A stretch of 37,255 bases of DNA from Candidatus Raymondbacteria bacterium RIFOXYA2_FULL_49_16 (GTDB lineage Bacteria > Fibrobacterota > OXYB2-FULL-49-7 > XYB2-FULL-49-35), in assembly GCA_001789205.1 (NCBI GenBank), contig MFYT01000069.1, positions 1,109 to 38,363 of the forward strand. Reading direction: 5' to 3'. Of the stretch, positions 7,834-36,856 are shown piece by piece. The position numbers were made by a program, and so were the translations under genes. The notes beneath the pieces are model-generated. The model was not told the origin of the DNA. It saw only the letters and a list, made by a program, of their open reading frames with translations, and did no database searches. Within the stretch, counting starts at the first letter, position 1; every line of letters begins with the position of its first letter.

Positions 7834-10821
7834 ATGAAGACTCTTCTTGGAGCCGTGGTACTCTCATTTTTCCTGAGTGCGCCACTGTTCGCCACCATCA
7901 GCAACATCGTTTTCGACAACAGCCAGCCCATGCAGCCGTCCGACAGCCTTATCATAGCATACGAATCAACGCAGGACACCACCTATCTTTTGCTCTATCT
8001 GGACAAAGACGGCCCTGCGACACTCGACACCCTCGTGGACCAGCTCATGTACAATATTATGATCATCGACAATGGTACTGAACAAATGTGGTGGGACAAT
8101 GGCGGACTCTTCCCTGACAGCGACCCTGCTGACCACGCCCTCCTCTTTTCGCCCGGTTCACCTGATTTTGCCGCGGCAAAGTACTGGTTTACCCTTACCG
8201 ATGCTGATAACGCCATATCCGACAGTTTCCGTATCGATGCCATAGCCAATCCCTATCGGACCATCAGCGGCACCATCACGCCGCCCTCGGGCGAATCAGC
8301 CGCCTTCATAAGCGTGGACGCAGGCGCCAAGGATTACAATGGCCATGCTTCAGCTTTTACAGACGTAAACGGCGACTATACACTCTATTTTGACAGCGCA
8401 ATGGTGGTTGCGGACAGCGGCAGGATCGGCGTACAGGTTACATCCGATGCATTCCCTGGTTATATTCCCGACCCCATGGGACAGCAGGTAAATCTCCTCA
8501 ATGCCAGTCAGTCAAATATCGACTTCTCGTATATTGCGGCCGCATGCGCGGTAAAGGGCCAAATACTCAGCGGCACCGATCCTTTGTCCAACATCTGGAT
8601 CGGACTGCGAAGCGCATCGACTGATCAGGACGCAGGCAGAGGTAACACCGATTCAGCAGGAAATTACTTCATGGCATGCGCTGCCGACAGCTACGAGATT
8701 CAACTGAGCCACGACGATCTGCTGCCCGACTATCTGATGCCCGACCAAATCAGATTCCGGGTTGACCAGGACGATACCGCCACCGTGGACATACAGATCA
8801 CGCGAGCCGACACGGCCATATACGGCCGTATCACTCTTGAAGGAAACGAATTGAGCGGCCAGAAATACGCGCTCCAGTTATGGAGCAACAACGGACACGG
8901 AACAAGTGAGACTGAATGCGACAGCCTTGGATATTTCAGGCTTCCGGCAACCACCCTTGACTCACTCTGCAACATCAATCTTGCTGTCTGGTGGAAGGGA
9001 TACGACTCCCTGCCGCAGGGATACATGATCGACAACGGTAACTATCGCCAGGCAAGACCCGGCGACACCGTGGTTTTCAATATTATCCCCGAACAGCAGT
9101 TGCCCAGAGGCTATATTTCAGGCTCTGTTTCATACAGCGGCCAGTTCGATCCTGATTTGATCGGTGTCTGTCTGATTGACCCGAAAAACATGTTTGCAGG
9201 CCCAATAATGTGCACGCAGCCCGATACTGCGGGTAATTTCTCCTTTACAGACGTACCTATGGGCGAATTCCTTGTCCTGGGCCTTATCGATACCAACAAC
9301 GACCATACAAGCGAAGCACAGAGCTTCTCCGACTCCACCATCAAAATCTTTGGGGGAGATTCCATACAAGGCATTATGCTGACTATCAACGACATGGGAT
9401 CCGGAGAAGCCGCAATTTCAGGCGATCTTTCAGCGATGGGTCCGTGGCCCGACAGTACGCGCATCTATGTTGTCGCTATTCCGGCCGATACCACGCTCCC
9501 GGACAGCCTCGCCCTCTCCAACCCACTCGTCTGGCTAACGGCAAAAAGCGTGACAATTGAAGGCCCTGGCCCCTATGCCATACCGGGTCTTGACAGCGGT
9601 GTCTATTATGTCATTGCCAATGCGGAATCGCTCGATCTTAACGGATCCTCGTGGAACCAATTCGGACACGGTATGTACGGATCAATCGGCCCGGGCAACG
9701 CCTATGACCTCTTTCCGGTTGTGCTGGGAAGCGCCACACAGGTAACGGGCATTGATCTCGTGCTCTATCGTGAACAGAAAAATGATTCTGTTCCTGTGGG
9801 AACAGGGCTGATCGAAGGGACAATAGAATATTCCGGCGCCTTTTCAATGCACAACATAGAAGTGCTCCTGTTCGAAGGAAACGATTATTTTACCGATCCT
9901 GTGCGCTCCGTTGTCCCCGATACGGATGGCCAGTACGCCTTTATCAACGTAGCGGACGGCCAGTACACGGTCATGGCCATGATTGACACAAACCAGGACC
10001 ACTCCGCCGAAGCTGCCGGGATCAACGATAGCCTGATTGTCATTGCCGGCAGCGACACCTTCACGGCCATCGACATTGTCTGCGAAGACAGACCCGCGGG
10101 TCAAGCCTCCATTTCCGGCGCAATCACCTATGCCGGAACCGTTCCCGCTGGCAGCGTTATCTCCGTCATGGCAGTCCCCGTGGACACGCTCCTGTCCGAT
10201 AGCGTAAACCTCTCTGATGCGAACATAGCCCTGAAAGGGGTCATGATACGGCTGCCGGGAGGGCCGGACACCTTCACCATCGCCGGTCTTGCCGCGGGCG
10301 TCTATTACCTGGCATCCTTTGCCGATTCCGCGTACTGGGACACAAGCTCGGGAAAGTACGAATCGCGTGAATTCGCCATGGGCATATATGGCGTTATCGC
10401 AACGCGAGATTCCTCGGGCAAACCCGATTCCATGGTCTTTGAACGCGTCCTTCTTGGCGCCTCTACCCATGCAACCGGAATAAACATTGAGATTGAATCT
10501 CCCGATATCGCTGTTGAAAAAGTCGCGGCAAAGGCCTTGCCCTCGTCGTTCGCCCTTTCCGAACCCGCGCCCAACCCCTTCAATCCCACGGTCAGTCTGA
10601 AATACCAGGTTCCGCAGGCGACTTTTGTCTCGGTCTCGGTATACGACATCAGCGGCAAACTGGTGACGCAGTTGACCGGAAAAACACACCAGCCCGGCTA
10701 TTACCAGGCAGTCTGGAACGGCACGAACGCGCTGGGTCAGCACGTTTCATCGGGAATGTACGTGTGCCGCATGCAGGCAGGAAGTTTTGTCAAGCAGCAG
10801 AAGATGGTTTTATTGAAGTAA
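7834..10821 (+). CDS. Secreted carboxypeptidase-regulatory-like repeat protein with C-terminal sorting tail
   Basis: 995 aa. The ATG is preceded by GGAGG at 7825-7829. The N-terminus is a typical Sec signal peptide (MKTLL, hydrophobic core, then LFA-TIS near residue 21). The body contains several transthyretin/CarboxypepD_reg-like beta-sandwiches; two nearly parallel copies are visible around nt 9100-9370 (GYISGSVSYSG ... LIDTNNDHTSEA) and nt 9800-10060 (GLIEGTIEYSG ... MIDTNQDHSAEA). The DTNxDHxxE stretches look like calcium loops. Residues ~905-995 form the NPFNP sorting tail (SEPAPNPFNPTVSLKY ... VSSGMYVCRMQ). It is probably an outer-surface structural or binding protein. No enzymatic motif was recognised, and function beyond export is unknown. 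Confidence 0.85.
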   Translation: MKTLLGAVVLSFFLSAPLFATISNIVFDNSQPMQPSDSLIIAYESTQDTTYLLLYLDKDGPATLDTLVDQLMYNIMIIDNGTEQMWWDNGGLFPDSDPADHALLFSPGSPDFAAAKYWFTLTDADNAISDSFRIDAIANPYRTISGTITPPSGESAAFISVDAGAKDYNGHASAFTDVNGDYTLYFDSAMVVADSGRIGVQVTSDAFPGYIPDPMGQQVNLLNASQSNIDFSYIAAACAVKGQILSGTDPLSNIWIGLRSASTDQDAGRGNTDSAGNYFMACAADSYEIQLSHDDLLPDYLMPDQIRFRVDQDDTATVDIQITRADTAIYGRITLEGNELSGQKYALQLWSNNGHGTSETECDSLGYFRLPATTLDSLCNINLAVWWKGYDSLPQGYMIDNGNYRQARPGDTVVFNIIPEQQLPRGYISGSVSYSGQFDPDLIGVCLIDPKNMFAGPIMCTQPDTAGNFSFTDVPMGEFLVLGLIDTNNDHTSEAQSFSDSTIKIFGGDSIQGIMLTINDMGSGEAAISGDLSAMGPWPDSTRIYVVAIPADTTLPDSLALSNPLVWLTAKSVTIEGPGPYAIPGLDSGVYYVIANAESLDLNGSSWNQFGHGMYGSIGPGNAYDLFPVVLGSATQVTGIDLVLYREQKNDSVPVGTGLIEGTIEYSGAFSMHNIEVLLFEGNDYFTDPVRSVVPDTDGQYAFINVADGQYTVMAMIDTNQDHSAEAAGINDSLIVIAGSDTFTAIDIVCEDRPAGQASISGAITYAGTVPAGSVISVMAVPVDTLLSDSVNLSDANIALKGVMIRLPGGPDTFTIAGLAAGVYYLASFADSAYWDTSSGKYESREFAMGIYGVIATRDSSGKPDSMVFERVLLGASTHATGINIEIESPDIAVEKVAAKALPSSFALSEPAPNPFNPTVSLKYQVPQATFVSVSVYDISGKLVTQLTGKTHQPGYYQAVWNGTNALGQHVSSGMYVCRMQAGSFVKQQKMVLLK

Positions 10822-13493: not shown

Positions 13494-13551
13494 TTTCCTA
13501 AATTGCAGCATATATTATACTTATAAATCATAACGTTAGCCTTTGGATGAA

Positions 13552-13556
13552 GGAGG
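13552..13556 (+). promoter_or_regulatory. Ribosome binding site that sets the start at 13562
   Basis: GGAGG lies five nt upstream of the ATG at 13562 and inside the coding sequence if the ATG at 13547 were used. Starting at 13562 also gives a clean signal peptide (MKYVLLIWVLLSLS). Confidence 0.8.
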
Positions 13557-13561
13557 AAAAT

Positions 13562-16500
13562 ATGAAATATGTGTTACTGATATGGGTATTACTCTCACTC
13601 TCCAATGGAGACACAATTCCAGCAATCAGAGAATCGGCTAGAGATATTCCGGTTGCCTATACCGTAGACATTGTTGTGGGTGGCGGCAACCTGGCAGGCG
13701 TGGCTGCCGCGATCACTGCCGCCAACCTCGGCGCCGAGGTCCTTATTATCCATTCGCGCCCAAGTTTCAGCCACGAGGTCTCGGATAAGTCACGTTATTG
13801 GCTGGAACCGAACGAGGTCCCCCAAACCGGTCTTGAACAGGATTTGCTGGGTACGCGTGCCAGTGGCGCCGGTTACTATTTTATTACACCCGGCCCGTAT
13901 AAAAAAAGGATTGAAGAAGCCTTGGTACAGACGGGAGTACGGTTTCTGTTCTGGACCACAGCAGTGGGCGTGCTTGAAGACGGTTCCGGGAATATCTCTG
14001 GAGTCGTGATCGTCAACAAGGCGGGCAGGCAGGTAGTAAAAGCAAAAGTGGTGATCGATGCAACATCCATGGCCGGCATCGCGCAGATGGCGGGAGCTGA
14101 AATGACAGCCTGGCCTGGCGGCAATCAAACCGTATCATGCACCAAAATGATCCCTGGAAGCGATGCTGAAGGGACCCCAATCGTCAACTATTCCGCCTCC
14201 ACATCAGACTATCTGCGCGAATACTCGATGCAGTTCCCTTTTACTGATGGATCCTGGACGGAACGATGCGCGGCGGAGTATCAGATTCGGCGAACTTTCC
14301 CGCGCCAGGATGCGGCCTGGATGAGCCACATGATCCATTTAAACGAGCCAAACCATATCATCGCGGAGGCGACTGATAGCTCTCCGACATGGCCCGGCGC
14401 AGCCAATCTGAGTTTGGACTGCTGCAGGCCCCGGGGGCTCTCACGCATATATGTGGCAAGCGGCGCTTCGGCGGTTTCCCGCGCCAATGCGGCTAAACTT
14501 ATCAGGCCGCTTGAACTTATCGCACTTGGCAAGCGTATCGGCGCACAGGCAAAGACAGATGCTGACGGACTTTCCCACCCCTCTTCAGTAATAGTTAAAA
14601 CGAACACCTCTACTGTCGGATATCAGCCGGGCCTGGATGTATCAGAGGCTCTGGATGGCCACCGGCCCTACCATATCTATCCGACAGTGCGCCAGGAATC
14701 AAATGATCTGCCGATATGGGGCGCGTATGATGTAATAGTAGTTGGGGGCGGCTCTGCGGGCGCTCCGGCGGCGATCGGAGCGGCGAGAAAAGGGGCCAAG
14801 GTACTGGTGATCGAGGCACTCGGCATACTCGGCGGCGTCGGCACCAATGGGATCGGACATTTCTATCAGGGATACACGCACGGATTTGCCATGGAATATC
14901 CGGTTGCCTGGTGGAAATCGGTGCATAAAGCTGAATGGCTCTTTGATGAAATCGCCAAACATAGCGGTGAGATCTGGTTCAATACCCTTGCCTGCGGTAC
15001 GGTTAAAAATGGAAACCGGGTATGCGGCGTGGTTGTTGCAACTCCCATGGGACGAGGAGCCGTGACCGGAACCGTGATTATTGACGCTACCGGTGACGGC
15101 GACATTTCATACTGGGCCGGAGCAGAGGTCATGCACCTGAACAATGGCGATCTTGCCATTCAAGAGGCCAGCTACATGGGCGATGATGCTGCTCCGGCAG
15201 GCATGAGAAATGAATGGGGGTCAATATTTTTTGATCCGGCGGACATCGAGAGTATGACAGATTTCTATTATCTCTCCAGAAAATACGGCGCGCACAAAGA
15301 CAGGTTTGATTTTTACGGACTGATCGGAAATCGGGAGACCAGGCTTGTGGTAGGCGATTATGTGGTAACCGCCCTGGACCAGAAGATCGGGCGCACCTAT
15401 CATGATATGATAAATATCGCCAGTGCGGACTTCGACATGCATGGATACCCTGATGGCCCGACTTGTATGGCGGGCCTCTTTCCAAATGGCATCAACTATG
15501 TACCCTATCGCGCTTTATTGCCGCGCGGGCTAAGGGGAATACTGGTCATAGGCCGGTGTAAGTCAATGATCCATGACGCCATGCCGATTACCCGCATGCA
15601 GGCTGATTTAACTAATGAAGGTTATGCGGCAGGCTATATCGCAGCAAAGTGTGTTGCGGACGGGGTTGATTTACGCGCTGTGGATATCGGCGCGGTTCAG
15701 GACCACCTGGCGGTTATCGGAAATATGACTGCAACGCACAGGGCGACTGTGTGCATAGAGATGGCGGAAGTCAATGACTCCGAACTGCAGAGCGCTGCAG
15801 AAAATCCCATTAATGAAAACCTGGAGAAGATCCTACGCGCACCGGCACGGGCCCTTCCCTATCTGCACGCCTCATTTGCCCAGACCCCGACCAAAGACAA
15901 GGCGCAGGCACTCTGTCTTATCGGCGACGCTGCTGGTGTGGAATACCTGGCCAACTGGTTTGATGGTGAGTCTCTTGGTACCGGCGTCTCTTATCTGGAC
16001 TTAATCCCCTTTCCGCCTATCCCTGCAATTAATGCCACTATCTGGGCGCTGGGCCAGTCCAGAGATGTTAGAGCCGTACCTGCGCTTGCACAAAAACTCG
16101 ATGATGTAGCGTTCCTCAACAGGGGGTCAACGGACTTTACCCATGTACGCAGCCTTGTTTTAGCGCTTGGCAAAATAGGCGATCCCTCCGGCACACCTGC
16201 GCTCAAACGGTTTCTGGAACGTAGTAATATAAACGGAAATGTCATGGGGCCTATGGATTGGCAGGCATCGTCAAAGTACGAGTTAGTTGAGTCAATTGTT
16301 GAGCTTCTTGGAGCTGCAGCATTATATAAGTGCGGTGATATAGGAAATATAGCTAGAGATAGACTTATCGATTACCGCGATAATGACTGGCGCGGCGTGT
16401 GCGTGCGCTTTGCCGGGTTTATTTTAAGCGGCGATTCGACCGTCTCTCCAGTTAAAACACAATATGATCGGCCAAAAACGCCTGAAGCTGCAGTTGCCGT

Positions 16501-16765
16501 CTATCCCAATCCTTTTAATCCGACTATTACTATCTCTATTGCTACCCATAAACACATTCCGAACAATTCTTTCCTGGTTGCAGTTTATACCCTGAGCGGT
16601 AGAAGAGTCCAGGTATTGGATGTGCAAAGGCTGCCCATACGCAGTAATGGCGCCCGGAATATGGTAGCATACTGGAACGGTGAGGGTATGGCAAGCGGCA
16701 TGTATTTTATAAAAATTAAAGTTGGTTTACGGACCTATACCAAACGCGTTATTCTAGTCAGATAA
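13562..16765 (+). CDS. Exported tandem FAD-dependent oxidoreductase with HEAT-like repeats and sorting tail
   Basis: 1067 aa from the ATG at 13562, chosen because of GGAGG at 13552-13556. A Sec-type signal peptide is followed by two separate FAD_oxidored-type Rossmann segments. The first is at residues ~36-65 (VVGGGNLAGVAAAI ... GAEVLII), the second at ~390-425 (VIVVGGGSAGAPAAIGAA ... ILGGVGTNG). The second copy looks complete, with IDATGDGDISYWAGAE and a GRCKSMIHDAMPITRMQ segment. Residues ~787-890 resemble HEAT/PBS-lyase repeats (ALGQSRDVRAVPALAQKL, then ALGKIGDPSGTPALKRFL). Residues ~977-1067 are an NPFNP sorting tail. The family oxidises diverse substrates and the one used here is unknown; carbohydrate neighbours suggest a sugar or glycoside. 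It is followed after one base by the symporter gene. Redox flavoproteins with this export tail are unusual. Confidence 0.85.
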   Translation: MKYVLLIWVLLSLSNGDTIPAIRESARDIPVAYTVDIVVGGGNLAGVAAAITAANLGAEVLIIHSRPSFSHEVSDKSRYWLEPNEVPQTGLEQDLLGTRASGAGYYFITPGPYKKRIEEALVQTGVRFLFWTTAVGVLEDGSGNISGVVIVNKAGRQVVKAKVVIDATSMAGIAQMAGAEMTAWPGGNQTVSCTKMIPGSDAEGTPIVNYSASTSDYLREYSMQFPFTDGSWTERCAAEYQIRRTFPRQDAAWMSHMIHLNEPNHIIAEATDSSPTWPGAANLSLDCCRPRGLSRIYVASGASAVSRANAAKLIRPLELIALGKRIGAQAKTDADGLSHPSSVIVKTNTSTVGYQPGLDVSEALDGHRPYHIYPTVRQESNDLPIWGAYDVIVVGGGSAGAPAAIGAARKGAKVLVIEALGILGGVGTNGIGHFYQGYTHGFAMEYPVAWWKSVHKAEWLFDEIAKHSGEIWFNTLACGTVKNGNRVCGVVVATPMGRGAVTGTVIIDATGDGDISYWAGAEVMHLNNGDLAIQEASYMGDDAAPAGMRNEWGSIFFDPADIESMTDFYYLSRKYGAHKDRFDFYGLIGNRETRLVVGDYVVTALDQKIGRTYHDMINIASADFDMHGYPDGPTCMAGLFPNGINYVPYRALLPRGLRGILVIGRCKSMIHDAMPITRMQADLTNEGYAAGYIAAKCVADGVDLRAVDIGAVQDHLAVIGNMTATHRATVCIEMAEVNDSELQSAAENPINENLEKILRAPARALPYLHASFAQTPTKDKAQALCLIGDAAGVEYLANWFDGESLGTGVSYLDLIPFPPIPAINATIWALGQSRDVRAVPALAQKLDDVAFLNRGSTDFTHVRSLVLALGKIGDPSGTPALKRFLERSNINGNVMGPMDWQASSKYELVESIVELLGAAALYKCGDIGNIARDRLIDYRDNDWRGVCVRFAGFILSGDSTVSPVKTQYDRPKTPEAAVAVYPNPFNPTITISIATHKHIPNNSFLVAVYTLSGRRVQVLDVQRLPIRSNGARNMVAYWNGEGMASGMYFIKIKVGLRTYTKRVILVR

Positions 16766-27501: not shown

Positions 27502-28896
27502 TTGTCTTATAAAGTTATATATGAATATTTTAGAAGCGTGCCAAGAGCAGCTGAAATATATCTATACTTAAAAGGCAAATGGGGTCTCTCCCGTTTTCTC
27601 GGACTTACCATAGCCCTTTTCTTTTTCACGTTTCTCCAAACACTCTATCCCCAGGCATTCAAATCCCTTCTGGCGATGAACCAGATGCGGATCATTGTTC
27701 CCGCGGCATATCTGTTAATGTATGTTGTCTGTTTTACGTCATATTCAAAAATTTATAAGTTCAAGGTCTTTTTAACAGGTCATCTGTTCCTTGCCATTGG
27801 GCTGTTTTATTACTATCTCAACTTCCAGGCCTATCCCAATCCCACGGCCTGGTATGCGCTGCCCTTCCTAAAAAACCTTCCCTTCCTTACGTCGCTCCGC
27901 ATCCTTGTGGGATTCACGTCGTTCAATATTGTCATAATCACCCTCTCTCCGCTGTCGCTGCGCTATAGGCTTACACGTTTCATCGCCCTCTTTATGTTCT
28001 TCAGCGAACTGGTGCTCTGCACCATTGTGTTGTTCAACATTTCGAAGATTGGACCAGGTAATGTGCTCATCTACGGTTCAGGATACATGGCCGCCATCTA
28101 TTTTATCAACCTGGGCGCGCTTGTCCTTTCTATCATCGTGGCAAAGGACGAAAATAGCTTCGGCGGCATTATCGCCAGCTTCTCCGTGGCCAACATCCTT
28201 ATTGCCCACGGAATCAACAGCATGGATTTCGTCTATATCAAGAGCATGTTCACGCTCATGCCGTCACTGGTGCTGGCCGCCACCCTCTACTACTGGTTCT
28301 CCTGTCTGCACCACCGCGTCGCCTACGATCCCCTGCTCAAAATCTACAACAGGGAATACGCCCATGCGATCATCAGCGGCACATCGCGCGTGACCCTGGG
28401 ACGGCCCTTCACCGTCGCCATGATCGACATTGACCGTTTTAAGAAAATCAACGATACCTACGGACACCAGGTAGGCGACGAGATCCTGGTGGGCACGGCC
28501 CAATGCATAAAGGCCACGGCCATGCCCACAGGCATCACCTGTAGATACGGCGGCGAAGAGATCATTGTCTTTCTCTGCGGCACAGGCGAAGCTGATGCGC
28601 TTGCCATCTGTGAGAAAATACGGCGCAAAGTGCGTGAGGTCCGCTACCAGTTCGACGATGGCCGCGAACTTGCGGTCTCTGTCTCAATTGGCCTGGCCGA
28701 ATGCGACGACCCTGAAATTCCGTTGGAACGGGTCGTTAAAGCCGCGGACGAGGCCGTGTACGTGGCAAAGGACACTGGCCGCAACAAGGTGGTGGCGGGC
28801 AAGGTGACCAAGCGCAACTCTGACCAGTCGCGTAAAACCTATCTCTTCATGCGCGTTCCCGGACGGGACCGCAGAAACCCTGAAAAAGACGCATAG
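27502..28896 (+). CDS. Membrane-bound diguanylate cyclase (GGDEF)
   Basis: 464 aa. The first ~270 residues hold six to eight hydrophobic helices (for example FLGLTIALFFFTFL and IIVPAAYLLMYVVCF). The C-terminal ~180 residues are a GGDEF domain: MIDIDRFKKINDTYGHQVGDEIL and the active site RYGGEEI (R348-I354), followed by VSVSIGLAE. It makes c-di-GMP from two GTP. The I-site RxxD expected five residues before the GGEE motif is replaced by MPTG, so product inhibition is probably absent. The start is uncertain: a TTG at 27502 is the best available, since an in-frame TAA lies at 27463 and no ATG precedes the first helix. No ribosome binding site is visible. It lies between the MurU-AmgK gene and pal on the same strand. 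Confidence 0.88.
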   Translation: MSYKVIYEYFRSVPRAAEIYLYLKGKWGLSRFLGLTIALFFFTFLQTLYPQAFKSLLAMNQMRIIVPAAYLLMYVVCFTSYSKIYKFKVFLTGHLFLAIGLFYYYLNFQAYPNPTAWYALPFLKNLPFLTSLRILVGFTSFNIVIITLSPLSLRYRLTRFIALFMFFSELVLCTIVLFNISKIGPGNVLIYGSGYMAAIYFINLGALVLSIIVAKDENSFGGIIASFSVANILIAHGINSMDFVYIKSMFTLMPSLVLAATLYYWFSCLHHRVAYDPLLKIYNREYAHAIISGTSRVTLGRPFTVAMIDIDRFKKINDTYGHQVGDEILVGTAQCIKATAMPTGITCRYGGEEIIVFLCGTGEADALAICEKIRRKVREVRYQFDDGRELAVSVSIGLAECDDPEIPLERVVKAADEAVYVAKDTGRNKVVAGKVTKRNSDQSRKTYLFMRVPGRDRRNPEKDA

Positions 28897-28935
28897 TCTA
28901 TTTGTTTTCATAAATATAAACCTGGAGGTTTTAAA

Positions 28936-29475
28936 ATGATCCATTCAATCACGATTGCGCTTGTATTCGCTTCAGTGGCCCTTTTTTTATCGTGTTCATC
29001 GTCAAAAGCAGTGAAACGCGATACGTCCGCTGACGAAAACAAACAGGAAACAGTTCAGCAGAAGGACCTGCAGCCGGTAACCACGGCTGAAATGACCGAG
29101 GACGAACTCACCCAGCTCAAGAAAATCATGGACCTGCTGAAGGACATTCCCTTTGATTTCGACAGCTATACCATTCCAACCGAAGGAATGGACATTCTCC
29201 GGAGCAACGTGGACCTGTTGAATGCTATGCTTGAAAAGCGGGGAAAAATGATCGTTATCACCATTGAAGGTCATACTGACGAACGGGGATCAGAGGAATA
29301 CAACCTGGCCCTGGGCGAACGCCGGGCAAAAACCGTCAAGGAATACCTCTTCAATGTGGGCTTTCATGAAGGTTCGCTTAAGGTCATAAGCTACGGCGAG
29401 GAAAAACCGAAAGTCGCGGGTTCTTCAGTTGAGGCTTGGGCAGCCAACCGGCGCGCGCACCTGATCGTCGAATAA
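28936..29475 (+). CDS. pal: Peptidoglycan-associated lipoprotein (OmpA/Pal family)
   Basis: 179 aa, preceded by GGAGG at 28924-28928. The signal peptide ends in a lipobox (LFLSC, with Cys20 as the lipidated residue), so it is anchored in the outer membrane. The C-terminal OmpA domain (residues ~65-179) has the Pal pattern: IPFDFDSYTIP, ITIEGHTDERGSEEYNLALGERRAKTVKEYL and ISYGEEKP, ending AANRRAHLIVE. It binds meso-DAP peptidoglycan and normally partners TolB. No tol genes are in the window. It is the last gene of the block before a clear terminator at 29491-29527. Confidence 0.93.
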   Translation: MIHSITIALVFASVALFLSCSSSKAVKRDTSADENKQETVQQKDLQPVTTAEMTEDELTQLKKIMDLLKDIPFDFDSYTIPTEGMDILRSNVDLLNAMLEKRGKMIVITIEGHTDERGSEEYNLALGERRAKTVKEYLFNVGFHEGSLKVISYGEEKPKVAGSSVEAWAANRRAHLIVE

Positions 29476-29490
29476 ATTTGTATATTGACC

Positions 29491-29527
29491 AGGGCAGAGA
29501 CGGCGTGGTCCAATCTGCCCTTTTTTT
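29491..29527 (+). terminator. Rho-independent terminator after pal
   Basis: AGGGCAGA (29491-29498) pairs perfectly with TCTGCCCT (29514-29521), with a 15-nt loop and a T-run at 29521-29527. The last T is also part of the stop codon of the convergent DUF362 gene. No T-run follows on the minus strand, so it acts on plus-strand transcripts. Confidence 0.85.
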
Positions 29528-31812
29528 CATTTCACCAGACAAATCCTCCGAGAAACCGACCTGCCCCCTGCTGTCGCGCGGACAATATATACGCCCGATG
29601 GCTGTCCTGTTGCATCCCATGTAATTCCAGCAGGTCTGCCTGAGGCAGAGCCGTTTGCAGCTGGCAGGTTTTTGACAAGCTTTCCATGAGCATTATAAAT
29701 GTCTATATAAACGTTTCCGCTGCCTGCTGCCCGCTGCATATTAACAGCTATCTTTATTGTCGGATTAAACGGATTGGGATTGCAGCTGATATGTAAATCA
29801 GCCGCACCATCAACCACAAACTCAACCGCAGGCGCGCCGTTGGCGCCAAGATGATAAAACGAGCCTTCAAGCGTGCGTCCGCCAAAGTAGGAACGTTTCA
29901 TTTCATCGGTGAGCGTACGCGCCGCCTGGAACGGATTGGACACGGAATAAGGATAGGTATAGGGAACATAGGTGGAGCGCGTTGCCGTGGATCCGTCGTT
30001 CACTATGGCGCAACTGAAGCCATATTCTGAACCTGACCGCCGTACCTTGACAAGGATCCTATTGTCGCCCTGGTTCAGCGTCACGCCTTTTACGCAGGTC
30101 ACCCGGTTGTAGGTAAGCAGGGCCGTGGTGTCGACAATCATCTGACCGTTCACGTAGATGCGCAGATCGCGCACGCCGCCCGCGTATACAAACCCTGTCT
30201 GGGCGGTCTCTGAATAGATCTTCGTAAATGCGTAGACCACGCTGTTGGCGCCTGTCCCCGCGACCGCCGCGGTCAGGTCAACAAAGTCCTGGGTCGCATA
30301 GAACCCTGTCCACGCATTGCCGCCCTCCAAATCGTTGGCAAAAGGGTTGACCGCCGCCTCGTTGATGTGCTGAGTGGTATTGTCCGCTGCCGTATAGGGG
30401 CCATTGAGCAGCCACCGTCTGCACGCACGCCCCAAATAATGCATGCCGTTAAAAGTTGTGTATGTGGTCCCGGTTCGGCCAATGGGCGCAAGAACATCGG
30501 TCTGCACGGCGCCCAGGGAATCGCCCACAATGGCAATCTGGTCGGGAAAACCCGTACCCAGACCGCGGGCAATGGACCACCTGATAATGTCCATATCGAG
30601 CGGGTTGAGTTTCATGGTCTGGCAGGCAACAGCCTCCACTGCCACTGGGTCTCCTCCGGCAAGAAGAAAATTCCTGCGCAGCCATCCGGTCTTGCTGCCC
30701 GACGGGTGCGACCCCTCTCCTTCAAGCGAGGCAAGCGCATCCACAAGCGTGTAATTGCCGGGATGATAACTGAAGAGGTTTGATACGGTATTGACCAGCT
30801 CAGTATGGTCAAGCAGTTCGAGTGACGCCCCCCGGTCGCGAGGATATGTCTCCGTTCCGTTGAGAGCATACACCCCGCGCGAGACTGTACCGATATAATT
30901 CTTATGTACGCAATTAATTATGATACCCCCCGTGGTCTTCATGACTGGAATGTTGACCAAAACATCGCAATTTTTCACTGCGTCCGTGATGTTGTAACCG
31001 CCGTCTGCGGCAATATTCGCGGTGGTAAGTGCACCAATGGCATTGGGGTTGTTATCCGGTACCGGATATATCTGGGGAACACAGCCGGCAAGCTCCGCAG
31101 GCGGTATTTCATTGTATGGCCGTCCATCGTCTAAAATCTCATTGTAATTGAGATTCAGACACTCTATGGTCTTTGCGGTATGGCGCGCCTGCGCGGCAGT
31201 CACCATGGACTGGAGTGCATATCCTGTTGGCAAATCAAGAAAATTACTATTCCAGCCTACGCCGCTGAAATCGCTTAGGGTAAAAATATCGTTTGCCGCG
31301 GAAAACGACCCGTATGAACCACCAGCCAGCAGCGAGATACGCTCCGCAGAAGTGCTGTCGGCAATATAGTCGAGAAGAGCCTGGATAATCCGCGGATCTG
31401 TCTGATCGCCTACCATGTAATTCCGTCCCGGATAAGAAACCAGATTGGGTAACAGCGTTACCCAACAGCCAGCGCCCAGAGCGTCGATTGTGTATTTCAG
31501 TTCAGGTATGGATGTTCCCCAATGTTTGTCCAAATCAATGACCGTATACACCATTTCACGTATCTCGGCTGTGGACAAAGTCTGGGTCAATGCTTTTGGA
31601 GATGAAAGTCCCGTGTGTTGCGAATTCACCAGGGCAACATGGGTCTTGATTGAAGCCGCTGTGTAACCGTCGACCAAAGCGCTGCCCGATTCATAGAAAA
31701 ACGAATCGACCGAAGGGTCGTTACCCGCTTTTATACGCGAGGTGACGATATCGATGGCCATAAAACAAAAAATCGCGGCAAACACGAAAATATATTTTAT
31801 CCGTTTTCTCAT
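29527..31812 (-). CDS. Exported DUF362 protein with C-terminal sorting tail
   Basis: 761 aa from the ATG complementary to 31810-31812. That codon has AAAGGA nine nt upstream and yields a signal peptide (MRKRIKYIFVFAAIFCF); an in-frame start at 31848 would put 12 extra residues in front of it. Residues ~45-470 match the DUF362 pattern: NIPVMKTTGGIIINCVHKN, YTLVDALASLEGEGSHP, and LAGGDPVAVEAVACQTMKLNP. A jelly-roll-like region lies at ~500-640. The last ~90 residues form the NPFNP tail (ISCNPNPFNPTIKIAV ... SGVYIVRATAGG). No [4Fe-4S] CxxCxxC cluster was seen, although DUF362 proteins are often near ferredoxins. Function is unknown. It starts 56 bp after the histidine kinase gene on the same strand. 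Confidence 0.85.
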   Translation of the reverse strand: MRKRIKYIFVFAAIFCFMAIDIVTSRIKAGNDPSVDSFFYESGSALVDGYTAASIKTHVALVNSQHTGLSSPKALTQTLSTAEIREMVYTVIDLDKHWGTSIPELKYTIDALGAGCWVTLLPNLVSYPGRNYMVGDQTDPRIIQALLDYIADSTSAERISLLAGGSYGSFSAANDIFTLSDFSGVGWNSNFLDLPTGYALQSMVTAAQARHTAKTIECLNLNYNEILDDGRPYNEIPPAELAGCVPQIYPVPDNNPNAIGALTTANIAADGGYNITDAVKNCDVLVNIPVMKTTGGIIINCVHKNYIGTVSRGVYALNGTETYPRDRGASLELLDHTELVNTVSNLFSYHPGNYTLVDALASLEGEGSHPSGSKTGWLRRNFLLAGGDPVAVEAVACQTMKLNPLDMDIIRWSIARGLGTGFPDQIAIVGDSLGAVQTDVLAPIGRTGTTYTTFNGMHYLGRACRRWLLNGPYTAADNTTQHINEAAVNPFANDLEGGNAWTGFYATQDFVDLTAAVAGTGANSVVYAFTKIYSETAQTGFVYAGGVRDLRIYVNGQMIVDTTALLTYNRVTCVKGVTLNQGDNRILVKVRRSGSEYGFSCAIVNDGSTATRSTYVPYTYPYSVSNPFQAARTLTDEMKRSYFGGRTLEGSFYHLGANGAPAVEFVVDGAADLHISCNPNPFNPTIKIAVNMQRAAGSGNVYIDIYNAHGKLVKNLPAANGSASGRPAGITWDATGQPSGVYIVRATAGGRSVSRRICLVK

Positions 31813-31868: not shown

Positions 31869-34124
31869 TCAGAGCTCTTGCTTCCTGAGCGCCTCAAGAA
31901 TCACCTGTGAAATCCTGACAATAGTGAAGGGCTTCTGAAGATATCCGGAAATACCCTCTGCGGACAGTTCCTGGGTCTGGGCATCGAGAGCATACCCTGA
32001 TGAAATGACCGCTTTCACATTCGGATTGATTTTTCTGAGCTCCTTCAGGCACTCAGGCCCCCCCATCTTGGGCATAATGACATCGAGTATCACTAGATCA
32101 ATGTTCACCCCTTGCTCACGATAGAGAACAACGGCTTCTTCACCGTTTGCCGCGGTCGACACCTCGTATCCGAGTTCCTTGAGTATTTCGGACAGCATCT
32201 CCCGTACAACATCTTCATCATCAACCACGAGAATATGGCCAGTACCGGTTTCAATGGAAGCGTCCAGCGTTTCATTCCTGCTCACCTGGCTTTCGGTAAG
32301 GGGTAGAAATACGCTGAACGTCGAACCTTTGCCAATTTCGCTGAATACATCCACAAATCCGTCATGGCTCTTTGCTGTCCCGTATACGGACGCCAGGCCA
32401 AGACCCGTCCCTTTGCCCACTGCCTTTGTGGTAAAAAAAGGCTCGAACAGGCGCGCTTTTACCTCTTCGTTCATTCCCATGCCAGTGTCTGAGATGGATA
32501 TCCGTATATATTTTCCCAGATTTATTTTATAGGCGCGCTGGGCAATAAACCGTTCGTCTATTGTGATGACGTCAGTGGCAATGTTCAATTCGCCGCCCTT
32601 GGGCATGGCGTCACGCGCGTTCACCGCAAGATTAAGGATCGCGTTCTGCACCTGCGATGGATCGCCAAGCAGGGTACTTGGCCGGGCCCTGAATTTCTGG
32701 GTAATGGTGATGTTCTTCTCTATGGTCCGTTCGAGTATCTTGACCACCTCGGTAATGGTCTCATGCACGTCGAGCAACACCAGCTCGAATTTGCCCTTGC
32801 GCGAAAAAGCAAGCAATTTAGAGGTAAGATCCGACGCCCGGCCGGCCGTGGAAACGATGGAATTCGCGTATTTTTCCACAATGGGGTTTTCTTTGCCGAA
32901 CTTAGTCCGCAGCAGGTCGCCGAAACCTGAAATACCCGCGAGCATATTGTTAAAGTCGTGCGCGATGCCTCCTGCCAGCTGGCCAATGGCCTCCATCTTC
33001 TGCGACTGGCGAAGCTGGTTTTCAAGCTGGCCCCGTTCCTCCTCGGTCTTTTTCCTATCGTTGATGTTCGCGGCTATCATGACCGCGGAAACCACACGTT
33101 CGCCCTCTTTAATCGGTCCCAGCCTGCACGAATACCACTGATGTTCGCCATACGACTCGCTGCTCTGGATCTCTATATTGACCGGTATTTTCTCACGGAA
33201 AACAAAGAGGAGCGCGTCTACCAGCATGCGTTGGTCCGTCTCTTTCCAATATCCAATGATCTTTGTTCCTATGATATTTTCCCGCGTTGCATTGCCGAAT
33301 GAATGGTTGATGAATAGCACTGTGCCTGCCTCATCAAGAGTGCAAACAATATCGGGCGCGCTTTCAACAAAGAGCCATTTTTTCTCTGACTCACGCAACG
33401 CGTGGTTCGCTTTTTCCAAATTGACGACCATGGCGTTAAACGCGATCGCAAGCTGGCCGATTTCATCGTGCGACGCCACCACCGCGCGCTCCATGAGGTC
33501 GCCCTGGCCTATCTTTTCCACGGTCCTGACCATGCTGCTCAACGGCCTGGTAATGAGGGTGCTTATCGCGAACACCGCGGCAATGCCCAAGAGGAAGATG
33601 GCGAGTGAAATAAGGAACATCGTACGCCTGATTTGAAACACATCACCATTCATCGATTCCAGTGAAAAGCCCGCATACAGAGTGCCCAACCGCGCCGCCC
33701 TCGCTGTTATGGGCGCCGCCACTTTGTAGAGTGCATGTTCCTCGGTAAAACCCTTGTTGCGCGCCGCGTCAAAATAGGCGGCCGCATTTGCAGCGGAATC
33801 GTTGAACGAGGCGAACACAACACCCGCGCTGTCCTGCACCATGATATAGACCAGGTCTTCGAGTTCCCGGGGCGCCTTGAGCGCCTCTTCGCACGACTGG
33901 CGGTCGTCAAAAAGCAGCGCAGGGCCAATCGAGAGCGCGGTGATCTGGGCGATGCTGTTTGCCTTATTGACAATGGCCGCCCTGGCCTGGCGCTCGAAAT
34001 TGCGCGGAAAATAGAGCGAAATGAAAATGGTGAGCGCCGCGAGCAGCAGGGTATAGAGAAGCAGGAATTTGAACCTGATGGGCAGATCAGCGAACATGGC
34101 GCGCAGTGCATTGCGATTAGGCAT
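31869..34124 (-). CDS. Hybrid histidine kinase with CHASE8-like sensor, HAMP, PAS and receiver domains
   Basis: 751 aa. TM1 is at residues ~18-39. A periplasmic domain follows (~40-165) with the CHASE8/YfiN-like pattern SIGPALLFDDRQSCEEAL ... QDSAGVVFASF. TM2 is at ~170-192 and HAMP at ~192-240, then a PAS domain (~250-360). HisKA has the phospho-acceptor His389 in GGIAHDFNNML. The ATPase domain shows the N-box NLAVNARDAMP, DTGMGM and GKGTGLGLA. A C-terminal receiver (~630-751) has VDDED, phospho-acceptor Asp681 in LDVIMP, and Lys731. All catalytic residues are present. No DNA-binding output is fused, so signal must leave through the receiver or a phosphotransfer partner elsewhere. The gene begins 13 bp after the YfiR-like gene and no Shine-Dalgarno is visible. 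The PAS may sense a second, cytoplasmic cue. Confidence 0.92.
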   Translation of the reverse strand: MPNRNALRAMFADLPIRFKFLLLYTLLLAALTIFISLYFPRNFERQARAAIVNKANSIAQITALSIGPALLFDDRQSCEEALKAPRELEDLVYIMVQDSAGVVFASFNDSAANAAAYFDAARNKGFTEEHALYKVAAPITARAARLGTLYAGFSLESMNGDVFQIRRTMFLISLAIFLLGIAAVFAISTLITRPLSSMVRTVEKIGQGDLMERAVVASHDEIGQLAIAFNAMVVNLEKANHALRESEKKWLFVESAPDIVCTLDEAGTVLFINHSFGNATRENIIGTKIIGYWKETDQRMLVDALLFVFREKIPVNIEIQSSESYGEHQWYSCRLGPIKEGERVVSAVMIAANINDRKKTEEERGQLENQLRQSQKMEAIGQLAGGIAHDFNNMLAGISGFGDLLRTKFGKENPIVEKYANSIVSTAGRASDLTSKLLAFSRKGKFELVLLDVHETITEVVKILERTIEKNITITQKFRARPSTLLGDPSQVQNAILNLAVNARDAMPKGGELNIATDVITIDERFIAQRAYKINLGKYIRISISDTGMGMNEEVKARLFEPFFTTKAVGKGTGLGLASVYGTAKSHDGFVDVFSEIGKGSTFSVFLPLTESQVSRNETLDASIETGTGHILVVDDEDVVREMLSEILKELGYEVSTAANGEEAVVLYREQGVNIDLVILDVIMPKMGGPECLKELRKINPNVKAVISSGYALDAQTQELSAEGISGYLQKPFTIVRISQVILEALRKQEL

Positions 34125-34137
34125 TGTTATGTCTTGG

Positions 34138-34719
34138 TTAATCGATGATTTTCGTCAGTTTAAGCATCTGGGAGCTCAGATTCATGCCTTCGGCCTTTGC
34201 CGCGGCCAGATTGACCAGTATCTGCGGCTTATCTCCCTTAACATCGAGGCCCATAGCAATTCCCAGCGAAACATAAGCCGGTACGCCGGTCAGGGTCACA
34301 ATCTTGTTGGCGCGCGCAATGGCCGTAATGTCTTTTATATTAAAAGCCCGCAGCGGGGTCACGTAGAGGACCGATACCCCGGCATCACGAATGGCCTTTT
34401 CAACCCCATCCCTTTCGGCAACCTCTAAGGGAACAAGGATCACCTGCCGGTTGTTGACCTTTATGGACTGGTTTTTCTGCGCGGTTTCAATGAAAAGTTC
34501 TTTTGTACGTAAAGATTCGTTGAATTTGGTCTGAAAAATAACGCCGATGCGCAGCTCTGCCTGGCTGGCAAGGTCCAAATTGCGGTCAAATCCAAGAATT
34601 TTCATAAAAATAAGGTATTGCACGTCAATCGGCACTGCCATCTCCTGCGCATGGCACCACGACGGTATCATGCCTGCGGCGGCAAAATAAAGAGCAATAC
34701 GGAGTAGCGTTTTTTTCAT
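34138..34719 (-). CDS. YfiR-like periplasmic protein (DUF4154)
   Basis: 193 aa from the ATG complementary to 34717-34719; the longer frame upstream overlaps the receptor gene and lacks a signal peptide. The Sec signal peptide (MKKTLLRIALYFAAAG ... CHAQ) gives a mature ~169-residue periplasmic protein. It has the DUF4154 pattern: YLIFMKILGFDRNL, LRIGVIFQ, VLYVTP, IVTLTGVPAYVSLGIAMGLDV, and PQILVNLAAAKAEGMNLSSQMLKL near the end. YfiR in Pseudomonas is a periplasmic repressor that holds the CHASE8 diguanylate cyclase YfiN inactive. Here the partner is almost certainly the CHASE8-like histidine kinase encoded 13 bp downstream. It follows the TonB receptor with a 7-bp gap. Confidence 0.86.
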   Translation of the reverse strand: MKKTLLRIALYFAAAGMIPSWCHAQEMAVPIDVQYLIFMKILGFDRNLDLASQAELRIGVIFQTKFNESLRTKELFIETAQKNQSIKVNNRQVILVPLEVAERDGVEKAIRDAGVSVLYVTPLRAFNIKDITAIARANKIVTLTGVPAYVSLGIAMGLDVKGDKPQILVNLAAAKAEGMNLSSQMLKLTKIID

Positions 34720-34726
34720 GGGTTTA

Positions 34727-36733
34727 TTAGTAAAAAATATCAATCTGCAAACCGAACGTTCTGCCATCCTGCCGTATCAACGGCATCGTATGTTCGAACC
34801 CGCCAGGATGGGCGTATTGAACATTAAAAATATTGCGCGCATAGGCGCTTGCGCGTACATGATTGAAGAGCCTTGCCGTGCGCAGATTCAAGTCAGACAG
34901 AAAAACCGGCGCACTCAGAGTATCATATATGGCAGCGCTCTTCCGTGATGTTTCATAATAGAGCTCCATGGAAGCGTAGACATATTTCCCGGTTGGTACG
35001 CTAATGCCAATTTTGGCCATATTCGTGGGGGAATTGGACAGCTTGATCTTATCCGGCACTTGCAGGGCGTACTGGAGCGTGTAATTGAGGTATCCGCTTA
35101 AACCATTGGGCAAACGCACGTCAAATGATGTTTCAACGCCTTTGGCTTCGACACGCGCGATGTTATCGTAGTATTCGCGTTGATACGGATCATTTTCATC
35201 GGTAAACACGTCTATCTGATCATACATACGGTAACCGAAGACCGAAGTCGAAGCGTACAACCATTCGGTAATGCGTTGTTCCCATACCATCTCCACCGTA
35301 TGTATCTGTTCAGAGGTAAGTCCGGAATTGCTCTTTCGTTCGGGGACAATAGTTGCATCTATGAGACTAAAATCTTTGTCCTCAAAATACTTCTCCCATA
35401 TATTGGGCGTCCTGAAAGCATGGCCGTACAGGAGTTTGAATGTTGTGGGCTGCAGGGGATGGTAGATGATGGCAGCGCGAGGACTAAAAGAATTCCCCTC
35501 GCGCGAATGATTGTCGTATCGTATTCCGGCGGTTAACAATACATTCGTAAAAGCTTGGAATTCGCCTTCGATAAAAACACTACGGGTGCTGTACGGCATG
35601 TTCCTGGAAAAAGAAATAAGAACCGTATCAGACAACACATATTCGTTCATATACAACGCGTCACTATGTTCTTGCACCTCTCCGCCAGCTATCACCCTGA
35701 TGTTCGAAAGTACATCATAAGAAAAACGAACCTCTCCGCCAGCCCAATTTCCATTCGTGGAATCATGTGTTTGATATATCCCATAGGGATACGTTCCCCC
35801 GTAGTCATAGTGGTCTAGATACATCTTTAAAAATAGCTGCATTTTCGGGGAAAGGGTGGATTCATACTGGATTTTGACAAATCCATTCTCATCCAAGGTT
35901 TTCTCGTTCGGATCATTAAAAACCGTCTCATACGAGGCTGTTGGCACGCCCTTCCACTTAGAAGTGACGAATCCTTCCAGCGTTAAGCCATGATATGAGA
36001 GGGACGAGAGGATTCCCCAATATTTGCTCCAATCAAGCCCTTCCGCGATCCCATTGTTTGTTACTGGATCATCAAATTCACGGTAATACTGGTTCTCTCC
36101 GGGATTATAGAACCAGCCGCCTGAAACCATTAAATCAACCTCGTCGTTTAAAAGGGACTTTCCAAACGACGCGCTACCGCCGCGCATGTTGGAACTGCCA
36201 TAGCGGGACGACATACGCAGGCCGTTCATCTGCTTTCCATTCTTAGTAATAACGTTAATGACCGCAAACATGGCGTTTGTGCCGTACAAGGCGGACCCTG
36301 GTCCGCGTACAATCTCAATGCGTTCGACATCTTCGAGCGGCAGATACGCCTCGTCTCCAAAGTAAGCGGAAAGAAAGACATTCTCATTAAGCGAATGACC
36401 ATTTAAGAGTAACAGTATTCGATCGTTGTAATCCGTGGGTCTGCTGAATCCCCGCGTACCAAGGTACCAATAATTCCGGTCATACGTTATATAAAAACCG
36501 GCAATGGAACGCAGCGCATCGCTGAGCGTATGATAGCCATATCGTGTAATGTCTTCAGCAGTGATAATTCTCACTGATGCAGGTGCATCCCCTATTTTCT
36601 GCTGGTATTTGGATGCGGTGCTGATAGGCATATCAAGCATCTCTTCCAAACCTATAATTGGCTGGTTTTGTTCATTGCTGAATATCATCGTTGCAGTACA
36701 GAATAGCCCTATAGACATTAATAATTTAGTCAT
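34727..36733 (-). CDS. TonB-dependent outer-membrane receptor
   Basis: 668 aa with a signal peptide (MTKLLMSIGLFCTATMIFS) and AAGGGA eight nt before the ATG. The plug domain (residues ~40-165) starts with LEEMLDMPISTASK, then APASVRIITAEDI, LSDALRSIAGFYI, RILLLLNGHSL and the plug signature VERIEIVRGPGSALYGTNAMFAVINVIT. The remaining ~480 residues form the 22-stranded barrel, rich in aromatic-terminated strands, and the chain ends in IDIFY, a terminal-aromatic outer-membrane signature. The ligand is unknown; size and plug resemble the colicin I / siderophore type. It heads the minus-strand set receptor-YfiR-kinase-DUF362, so ligand binding may be the input to the relay. Confidence 0.94.
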   Translation of the reverse strand: MTKLLMSIGLFCTATMIFSNEQNQPIIGLEEMLDMPISTASKYQQKIGDAPASVRIITAEDITRYGYHTLSDALRSIAGFYITYDRNYWYLGTRGFSRPTDYNDRILLLLNGHSLNENVFLSAYFGDEAYLPLEDVERIEIVRGPGSALYGTNAMFAVINVITKNGKQMNGLRMSSRYGSSNMRGGSASFGKSLLNDEVDLMVSGGWFYNPGENQYYREFDDPVTNNGIAEGLDWSKYWGILSSLSYHGLTLEGFVTSKWKGVPTASYETVFNDPNEKTLDENGFVKIQYESTLSPKMQLFLKMYLDHYDYGGTYPYGIYQTHDSTNGNWAGGEVRFSYDVLSNIRVIAGGEVQEHSDALYMNEYVLSDTVLISFSRNMPYSTRSVFIEGEFQAFTNVLLTAGIRYDNHSREGNSFSPRAAIIYHPLQPTTFKLLYGHAFRTPNIWEKYFEDKDFSLIDATIVPERKSNSGLTSEQIHTVEMVWEQRITEWLYASTSVFGYRMYDQIDVFTDENDPYQREYYDNIARVEAKGVETSFDVRLPNGLSGYLNYTLQYALQVPDKIKLSNSPTNMAKIGISVPTGKYVYASMELYYETSRKSAAIYDTLSAPVFLSDLNLRTARLFNHVRASAYARNIFNVQYAHPGGFEHTMPLIRQDGRTFGLQIDIFY

Positions 36734-36788: not shown

Positions 36789-36814
36789 TTTTTATATAGG
36801 GTAAAAAATAGCCG

Positions 36815-36856
36815 AACCTGTTATAAAAGGCCCGGGGAAAACAGAACCAACAGGTT
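36815..36856 (-). terminator. Possible terminator after the right-edge fragment
   Basis: AACCTGTT (36815-36822) and AACAGGTT (36849-36856) form an 8-bp stem with a 26-nt loop. On the minus strand a TATTTTTT run follows a few bases later. It is downstream of the gene fragment at 36875 and upstream of the receptor promoter. Confidence 0.35.

Follow-up and report, generated by a model that had tools for sequence, protein, structure and literature searches.

A TonB-dependent receptor, a divergent YfiR-like protein and a CHASE8 hybrid histidine kinase encoded as a conserved gene trio with features of a Yfi-type signalling relay

Introduction

In the YfiBNR system of Pseudomonas aeruginosa, the periplasmic protein YfiR represses YfiN, an inner-membrane receptor with a CHASE8-type domain, HAMP and a GGDEF output, and is captured at the outer membrane by the OmpA-like lipoprotein YfiB. 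The site on YfiN at which YfiR docks is the AAVVF motif, and substitutions in it, including F70L, render YfiN insensitive to YfiR (PMC3375315). In the same survey, Malone et al. 2012 described YfiR together with PAS/HAMP receptors ending in a kinase, a histidine phosphotransfer (Hpt) domain, GGDEF-EAL or a methyl-accepting chemotaxis protein (MCP), including one hybrid kinase from Thauera sp. MZ1T; in their proposal, the YfiR-YfiN[PAS/HAMP] core is of ancient origin and modular in make-up (PMC3375315). Here we describe a gene trio of this kind, encoding a TonB-dependent receptor, a YfiR-like protein of the DUF4154 family and a CHASE8 hybrid histidine kinase, in a 37,255-nt stretch of DNA (the window; contig MFYT01000069.1, positions 1,109-38,363 of the forward strand) from Candidatus Raymondbacteria bacterium RIFOXYA2_FULL_49_16 (GCA_001789205.1).

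The window trio shares with YfiBNR a periplasmic protein of YfiR fold, an inner-membrane receptor with a CHASE8-type domain and HAMP, a docking motif with its Phe, and a gene for an outer-membrane partner. It differs in that no OmpA-like lipoprotein YfiB is encoded with it and a TonB receptor holds that place, in its HisKA-HATPase-REC output instead of GGDEF, and in the mature YfiR, which lacks cysteines and comes from another subfamily. Since both YfiB and GGDEF were sought and not found, the trio is assigned to the modular Yfi core and not to YfiBNR. With this core it has in common the adjoining genes for YfiR and a PAS/HAMP receptor, the retained docking hydrophobics (PALLF for AAVVF) and a kinase output, whereas the hidden Markov models of the Malone survey were derived from P. 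aeruginosa-like YfiR, from which the window protein diverges. The FecA-FecR kind of STN-type transducer, working with an anti-sigma factor, resembles it in the presumed signalling of a TonB receptor across the outer membrane, although the window receptor lacks STN according to Pfam and its partners are YfiR and a kinase. A further parallel is LapD/LapG, where a periplasmic protein is bound by a PAS-type HAMP receptor, and the structural model of the window CHASE8 resembles the output domain of a LapD ortholog; LapG is, however, a protease and LapD a receptor of cyclic di-GMP, and neither is a relative of YfiR.

Among NCBIfam families, the best matches of the YfiR-like protein and of the receptor are TOL_0243 (NF053591) and the TonB family TOL_0244 (NF053590), respectively, but with 33.5 bits against an equivalog cut-off of 125 and 145 bits against 645, both lie far below these families. 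As the two family names are paired, consecutive locus tags, curators have probably taken note of the YfiR-TonB gene pair. In the literature, 'TonB' has no occurrence in the main text of PMC3375315 and likewise none in the structural paper PMC4887326, and searches pairing YfiR with TonB-dependent receptors gave either nothing or incidental-looking matches. The original prediction for this DNA held that the likeness of the trio to YfiBNR logic may be under-described; as kinase outputs were reported by Malone et al. 2012 (PMC3375315), this does not extend to the output, while the conserved TonB partner and the divergent YfiR subfamily, designated FDRN below, are less described than it.

Results

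Organization of the trio

The three genes lie on the minus strand in the order receptor, yfiR and kinase, with gaps of 7 bp (34720-34726, receptor to yfiR) and 13 bp (34125-34137, yfiR to kinase). Coordinates and Pfam assignments agree with the arrangement originally predicted. For yfiR the ATG at 34719 was chosen, whereas the mechanical open reading frame (ORF) begins at 34767. Genes and kinase domains are as follows, TM denoting a transmembrane segment.

34727-36733, minus strand: TonB-dependent receptor with plug and barrel, outer-membrane tier (668 aa ORF; Pfam)
34138-34719, minus strand: YfiR-like periplasmic protein, DUF4154 (193 aa from the ATG at 34719; Pfam)
31869-34124, minus strand: hybrid histidine kinase, TM-CHASE8-TM-HAMP-PAS-HisKA-HATPase-REC (751 aa; Pfam, intact catalytic motifs)
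33675-33974, minus strand: CHASE8 periplasmic domain, kinase residues 51-150 (PF17152, 1.2e-8, 35.6 bits against a cut-off of 27)
33909-33923, minus strand: PALLF motif, residues 68-72, counterpart of AAVVF in YfiN
33414-33563, minus strand: HAMP, residues 188-237 (Pfam, 47.5 bits)
33051-33368, minus strand: PAS, residues 253-358 (Pfam PAS_4, 25.5 bits against 23.1)
32295-32984, minus strand: HisKA and HATPase_c core, residues 381-610, phospho-acceptor His389 (Pfam, motif positions)
31902-32234, minus strand: C-terminal receiver (REC), residues 631-741, acceptor Asp681 (Pfam, 85.9 bits; motif positions)

Co-occurrence of the three genes

Within the phylum of the window, sampled with 168 genomes, 22 DUF4154 genes and 16 CHASE8 domains above the cut-off were found, and every one of these 16 domains is encoded next to a DUF4154 gene, as against none of the 12 matches below the cut-off. 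The six DUF4154 genes without such a neighbour comprise two at contig ends, one fused to a kinase, one next to a CHASE8-HAMP MCP (accepted by the profile built here and not by the Pfam cut-off) and two with a TonB receptor and no CHASE8 gene. Thus, a YfiR-fold protein and a CHASE8-HAMP receptor constitute an almost obligate gene pair in this phylum. The window kinase carries the only CHASE8 domain found in its genome and adjoins one of only two DUF4154 genes there; the second copy is among the two with TonB alone. This second gene (L023, G000:C19, 6172-8768) is of the classic type, lies 20 bp from a TonB receptor gene and has no adjoining CHASE8 or kinase gene.

A wider set of 94 YfiR genes from six phylum-level groups was assembled from a scan of a genome collection and from profile searches, three of which cover one phylum and are counted as one sample; the groups added, named by their record titles, are Gemmatimonadota, Calditrichota, a KSB1-like group, Acidobacteriota and one further group. 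The bait of the genome scan included two composite YfiR sequences, by which the peptide patterns were widened, and all later counts come from real sequences. Neighbours were scored with profiles built here, 336 genes further away in the same loci serving as background. A CHASE8-HAMP protein is encoded immediately downstream of yfiR at 65 of 86 positions (7/336 in the background, about 2%; p = 1.9e-49) and a TonB receptor immediately upstream at 47 of 82 (6/336, again about 2%; p = 5.5e-33), in a set where loci outside the phylum of the window were chosen by similarity to its YfiR subfamily and related genomes are not independent. The median gaps are 1 bp on the CHASE8-HAMP side and 3 bp on the TonB side, and 36 loci have the exact order TonB-YfiR-CHASE8. 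Pfam, which is independent of our profiles, detects CHASE8 in 61 of 70 partner proteins. The TonB-dependent receptor is hence the usual gene directly before the YfiR-CHASE8 pair. A YfiB-like or OmpA-type gene was found near only one of the 94 YfiR genes, and no relatives of the trio were found in viral and plasmid collections. Since the trio recurs in several bacterial phyla, it represents a known type of signalling system in a form that is widespread but little described.

A chance neighbourhood, in which a TonB receptor gene merely happens to lie beside a two-component kinase gene without functional link, is highly improbable in view of the cross-phylum co-occurrence (p below 1e-30), the constant order and strand, the overlapping frames and the YfiR-kinase fusion described below.

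The YfiR-like protein

The YfiR-like protein matches DUF4154 (PF13689, YfiR/HmsC-like) with 40.1 bits against a cut-off of 24.9, covering only profile positions 43-142 of 143, and has an N-terminal signal peptide. Its AlphaFold2 model (predicted local distance difference test, pLDDT, of 89) was matched by Foldseek to the crystal structures of P. aeruginosa YfiR (4yn7, 4yna, 5eb1) with TM-scores of about 0.7-0.77 normalized by target length. A broader profile of 20 sequences reaches P. aeruginosa YfiR 4zhu (E = 6.5e-14), while the profile of the window's own subfamily found no solved structure. Alignment revealed that the motif 'KIL-[FY]-DRN' replaces the 'F-[VI]-x-WP'-like residues of classic YfiR and 'T[LF]TGVPxY' replaces the classic 'LTVSDxxxF'; judged from these sequence features, the protein is a divergent member belonging to a 'KIL-FDRN' subfamily (FDRN). 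The analysis thereby defines a YfiR subfamily for which sequence search found no solved structure. The sole cysteine, Cys22, lies in the signal peptide, and the Cys145-Cys152 disulfide of P. aeruginosa YfiR, a trait that does not define the Pfam family, has no counterpart; because the mature protein lacks cysteine, it cannot have the redox role that has been suggested for P. aeruginosa YfiR.

Among other FDRN-type genes, three (L138, L139 and L140) have neither CHASE8 nor TonB neighbours, and downstream of them lie three opposite-strand genes of like size (about 236, 576-591 and 121-126 aa), placing these YfiR orphans in another constant context.

The CHASE8 kinase and its putative docking motif

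All kinase domains (CHASE8, HAMP, PAS_4, HisKA, HATPase_c and REC) exceed their Pfam cut-offs. As CHASE8 lies between two TM-like segments (residues 16-40 and 165-195), this domain should be periplasmic, and its structural model matches sensor domains of WalK, LapD-type proteins, DctB and CitA. The earlier assignment of the periplasmic segment to CHASE8 was thus confirmed by PF17152, which removes the competing possibility of an unrelated sensor family, and the predicted output of a hybrid histidine kinase is equally borne out, since HisKA, HATPase_c and REC are present with His389, the N, G1, F and G2 boxes and Asp681 of REC intact.

The docking Phe of YfiN (F70 of AAVVF) corresponds to F72 in the PALLF motif of the window kinase; of the 65 paired CHASE8 domains, 58 have Phe at this position and every one has a hydrophobic residue there. 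Distances among YfiR proteins and among CHASE8 domains correlate (rho 0.72 over 65 pairs; 0.75 and 0.71 inside two YfiR subfamilies) with shared ancestry not removed, and shared ancestry accounts for part of this co-variation. Given that all 16 CHASE8 domains in the phylum of the window adjoin a DUF4154 gene, CHASE8 gains a simple reading as a YfiR-docking domain.

The TonB-dependent receptor

Pfam assigns a Plug (69.5 bits, 4.1e-19) and a barrel (87.4 bits, 2.5e-24) to the receptor and detects no other part in it, the STN signalling domain being absent in this search; its relatives in the PDB are Cir, PfeA and BtuB. The proposal that a TonB receptor is the outer-membrane component of the system stands in so far as this receptor is the usual neighbour and the operon holds no YfiB-like gene; a contact between receptor and YfiR is an inference.

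Outputs and variants of the cluster

By our profiles, the 70 partner proteins divide into 42 histidine kinases, 8 MCP and 6 GGDEF proteins, with 14 unassigned or truncated, and Pfam agrees. A histidine kinase is therefore the commonest output in the sampled phyla, and the original description of the trio as a Yfi relay 'rewired to phosphotransfer' is doubtful: with kinase outputs common here and with the core modular and ancient as proposed by Malone et al. 2012, this wording may reverse the history.

Several variants were observed. In L039 (7360-9729), a YfiR domain is fused via a long coiled coil and a TM segment to a kinase of HisKA-HATPase-REC type that lacks CHASE8, and the gene directly before this fusion encodes a TonB receptor; L042 (12950-13564), cut by a contig end, may be a second YfiR-kinase fusion. 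In L031, L033, L034 and L035, a second kinase gene (REC followed by histidine kinase, about 520 aa) lies between the TonB receptor gene and yfiR, which is a two-kinase version of the cluster. In the Acidobacteriota group, L145-L150 have YfiR-CHASE8-GGDEF pairs without an adjoining TonB gene, and in five of these six a protein of 1100-1330 aa with a HisKA_2-type kinase end comes next.

Discussion

The window trio probably constitutes a Yfi-type relay with three tiers for transmembrane signalling, whose mechanism is supplied by analogy with P. aeruginosa YfiR/YfiN genetics (PMC3375315). The YfiR-like protein would dock on CHASE8 at its hydrophobic A-[LV]-x-F motif, holding the kinase in one state, repressed if YfiN is a guide. 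The TonB receptor would serve as input, acting when it binds or carries its substrate, either by YfiB-like capture of YfiR at the outer membrane or by delivering a ligand for YfiR to bind. Departure of YfiR from CHASE8 would switch HAMP and lead the kinase to phosphorylate His389 and Asp681, and the signal would presumably pass to a phosphotransfer protein and a response regulator encoded elsewhere.

Several observations weigh against such a relay. No response regulator or Hpt gene adjoins the trio in the window, about 40% of the YfiR genes in the widest set have no TonB receptor directly upstream, and AlphaFold2 models CHASE8-HAMP with moderate confidence (pLDDT 73). In the window YfiR, positions by which binding to YfiN is strengthened are altered according to alignments (F151 to M156, E163 to L168 and I169 to A174); the surface there is still hydrophobic, hence docking may use this same face through a different chemistry. 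Moreover, a TonB receptor at most two genes away on the same strand, present at 35 of 42 kinase loci and five of eight MCP loci, is found at none of the six GGDEF loci, all six of them in one phylum. These numbers suggest, without proving, that TonB input goes with kinase output.

The alternative that survives best, which coincides with the second of the two input modes above, regards YfiR as a ligand-binding protein: the receptor would import a small molecule, YfiR would bind it in a fold resembling that of substrate-binding proteins, and loaded YfiR would activate or release CHASE8, without need for contact between TonB receptor and YfiR. The Foldseek matches of the YfiR model are in keeping with this, since they include ATP-binding cassette (ABC) substrate-binding proteins in complex with L-Trp, and the lowest E-values of all belong to a single-domain substrate-binding protein of Rhodothermus marinus (PDB 6k1x, 8wgl, 5z6v). 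Furthermore, the constant neighbour is a transporter gene and not that of a peptidoglycan-binding lipoprotein, and vitamin B6 and L-Trp are ligands of P. aeruginosa YfiR. Their reported affinities are, however, very weak (tens of mM, PMC4887326), the known Yfi mechanism is protein capture and the FDRN subfamily has no known ligand, so that this explanation is to be entertained as a possibility of the second rank. Single-domain proteins of the Rhodothermus marinus type are described as often encoded near chemoreceptor genes (PMC10805632), and the R. marinus protein may itself be a YfiR-type protein that partners an MCP and has so far gone unrecognised, like those of eight loci found here.

It is unlikely that the TonB receptor is instead an output, co-transcribed with the kinase because the latter controls substrate uptake, and that YfiR senses another cue, for example the state of the envelope or redox conditions. 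Gene order alone does not separate input from output, and many YfiR-CHASE8 pairs have no adjoining TonB gene; yet the P. aeruginosa redox mode is unavailable to a mature YfiR without cysteine, the TonB gene stands first and adjoins yfiR in 47 of 82 loci, and no response-regulator gene is constant.

Physiologically, the Yfi-type relay bears on how an event at the outer membrane reaches a cytoplasmic kinase in these bacteria, and it suggests a role beyond import for STN-less TonB receptors encoded beside YfiR genes. As a speculative extension, which we would advance only tentatively, there could be a second general route of TonB signalling without STN and anti-sigma factor, in which, in many phyla, substrate load decides whether the periplasmic face of the receptor captures or releases a YfiR-family protein, and this in turn sets the activity of CHASE8 kinases or chemoreceptors.

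Neighbouring genes and minor observations

Two further features border the trio.

36812-36835, minus strand: terminator-like hairpin just upstream of the trio (consensus match only)
29527-31812, minus strand: DUF362 protein ending in a type IX secretion tail, its gene lying 56 bp past that of the kinase (likely ATG 31812)

The candidate hairpin would isolate the trio from the upstream gene, and the DUF362 gene is possibly the last gene of the unit. As a conserved fourth gene, for which L047 and L048 were candidates on a first pass, DUF362 was rejected, since what these loci share is confined to a short stretch that is not part of the DUF362 domain and Pfam shows ankyrin/beta-lactamase proteins there; no homologous full-length DUF362 gene was seen after other trios, and it is not a conserved member. 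A search of the window for a riboswitch or other Rfam match, as a hint to the ligand, gave none. C-terminal sorting tails for type IX secretion occur on three window proteins (7834-10821, 13547-16765 and 29527-31812), namely one carboxypeptidase-regulatory-like protein, one FAD oxidoreductase and the DUF362 protein.

Near the trio on the opposite strand (27502-29475, plus strand), a GGDEF protein is encoded whose N-terminal half is long and hydrophobic and which has no CHASE8; it is followed, beyond the DUF362 gene as seen from the trio, by a Pal/OmpA-like lipoprotein (28936-29475) that scores 112.7 of 125 bits for Pal and 58 of 128 for YfiB. This pair recalls the yfiN-yfiB pairs without yfiR of Malone et al. 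2012 (PMC3375315).

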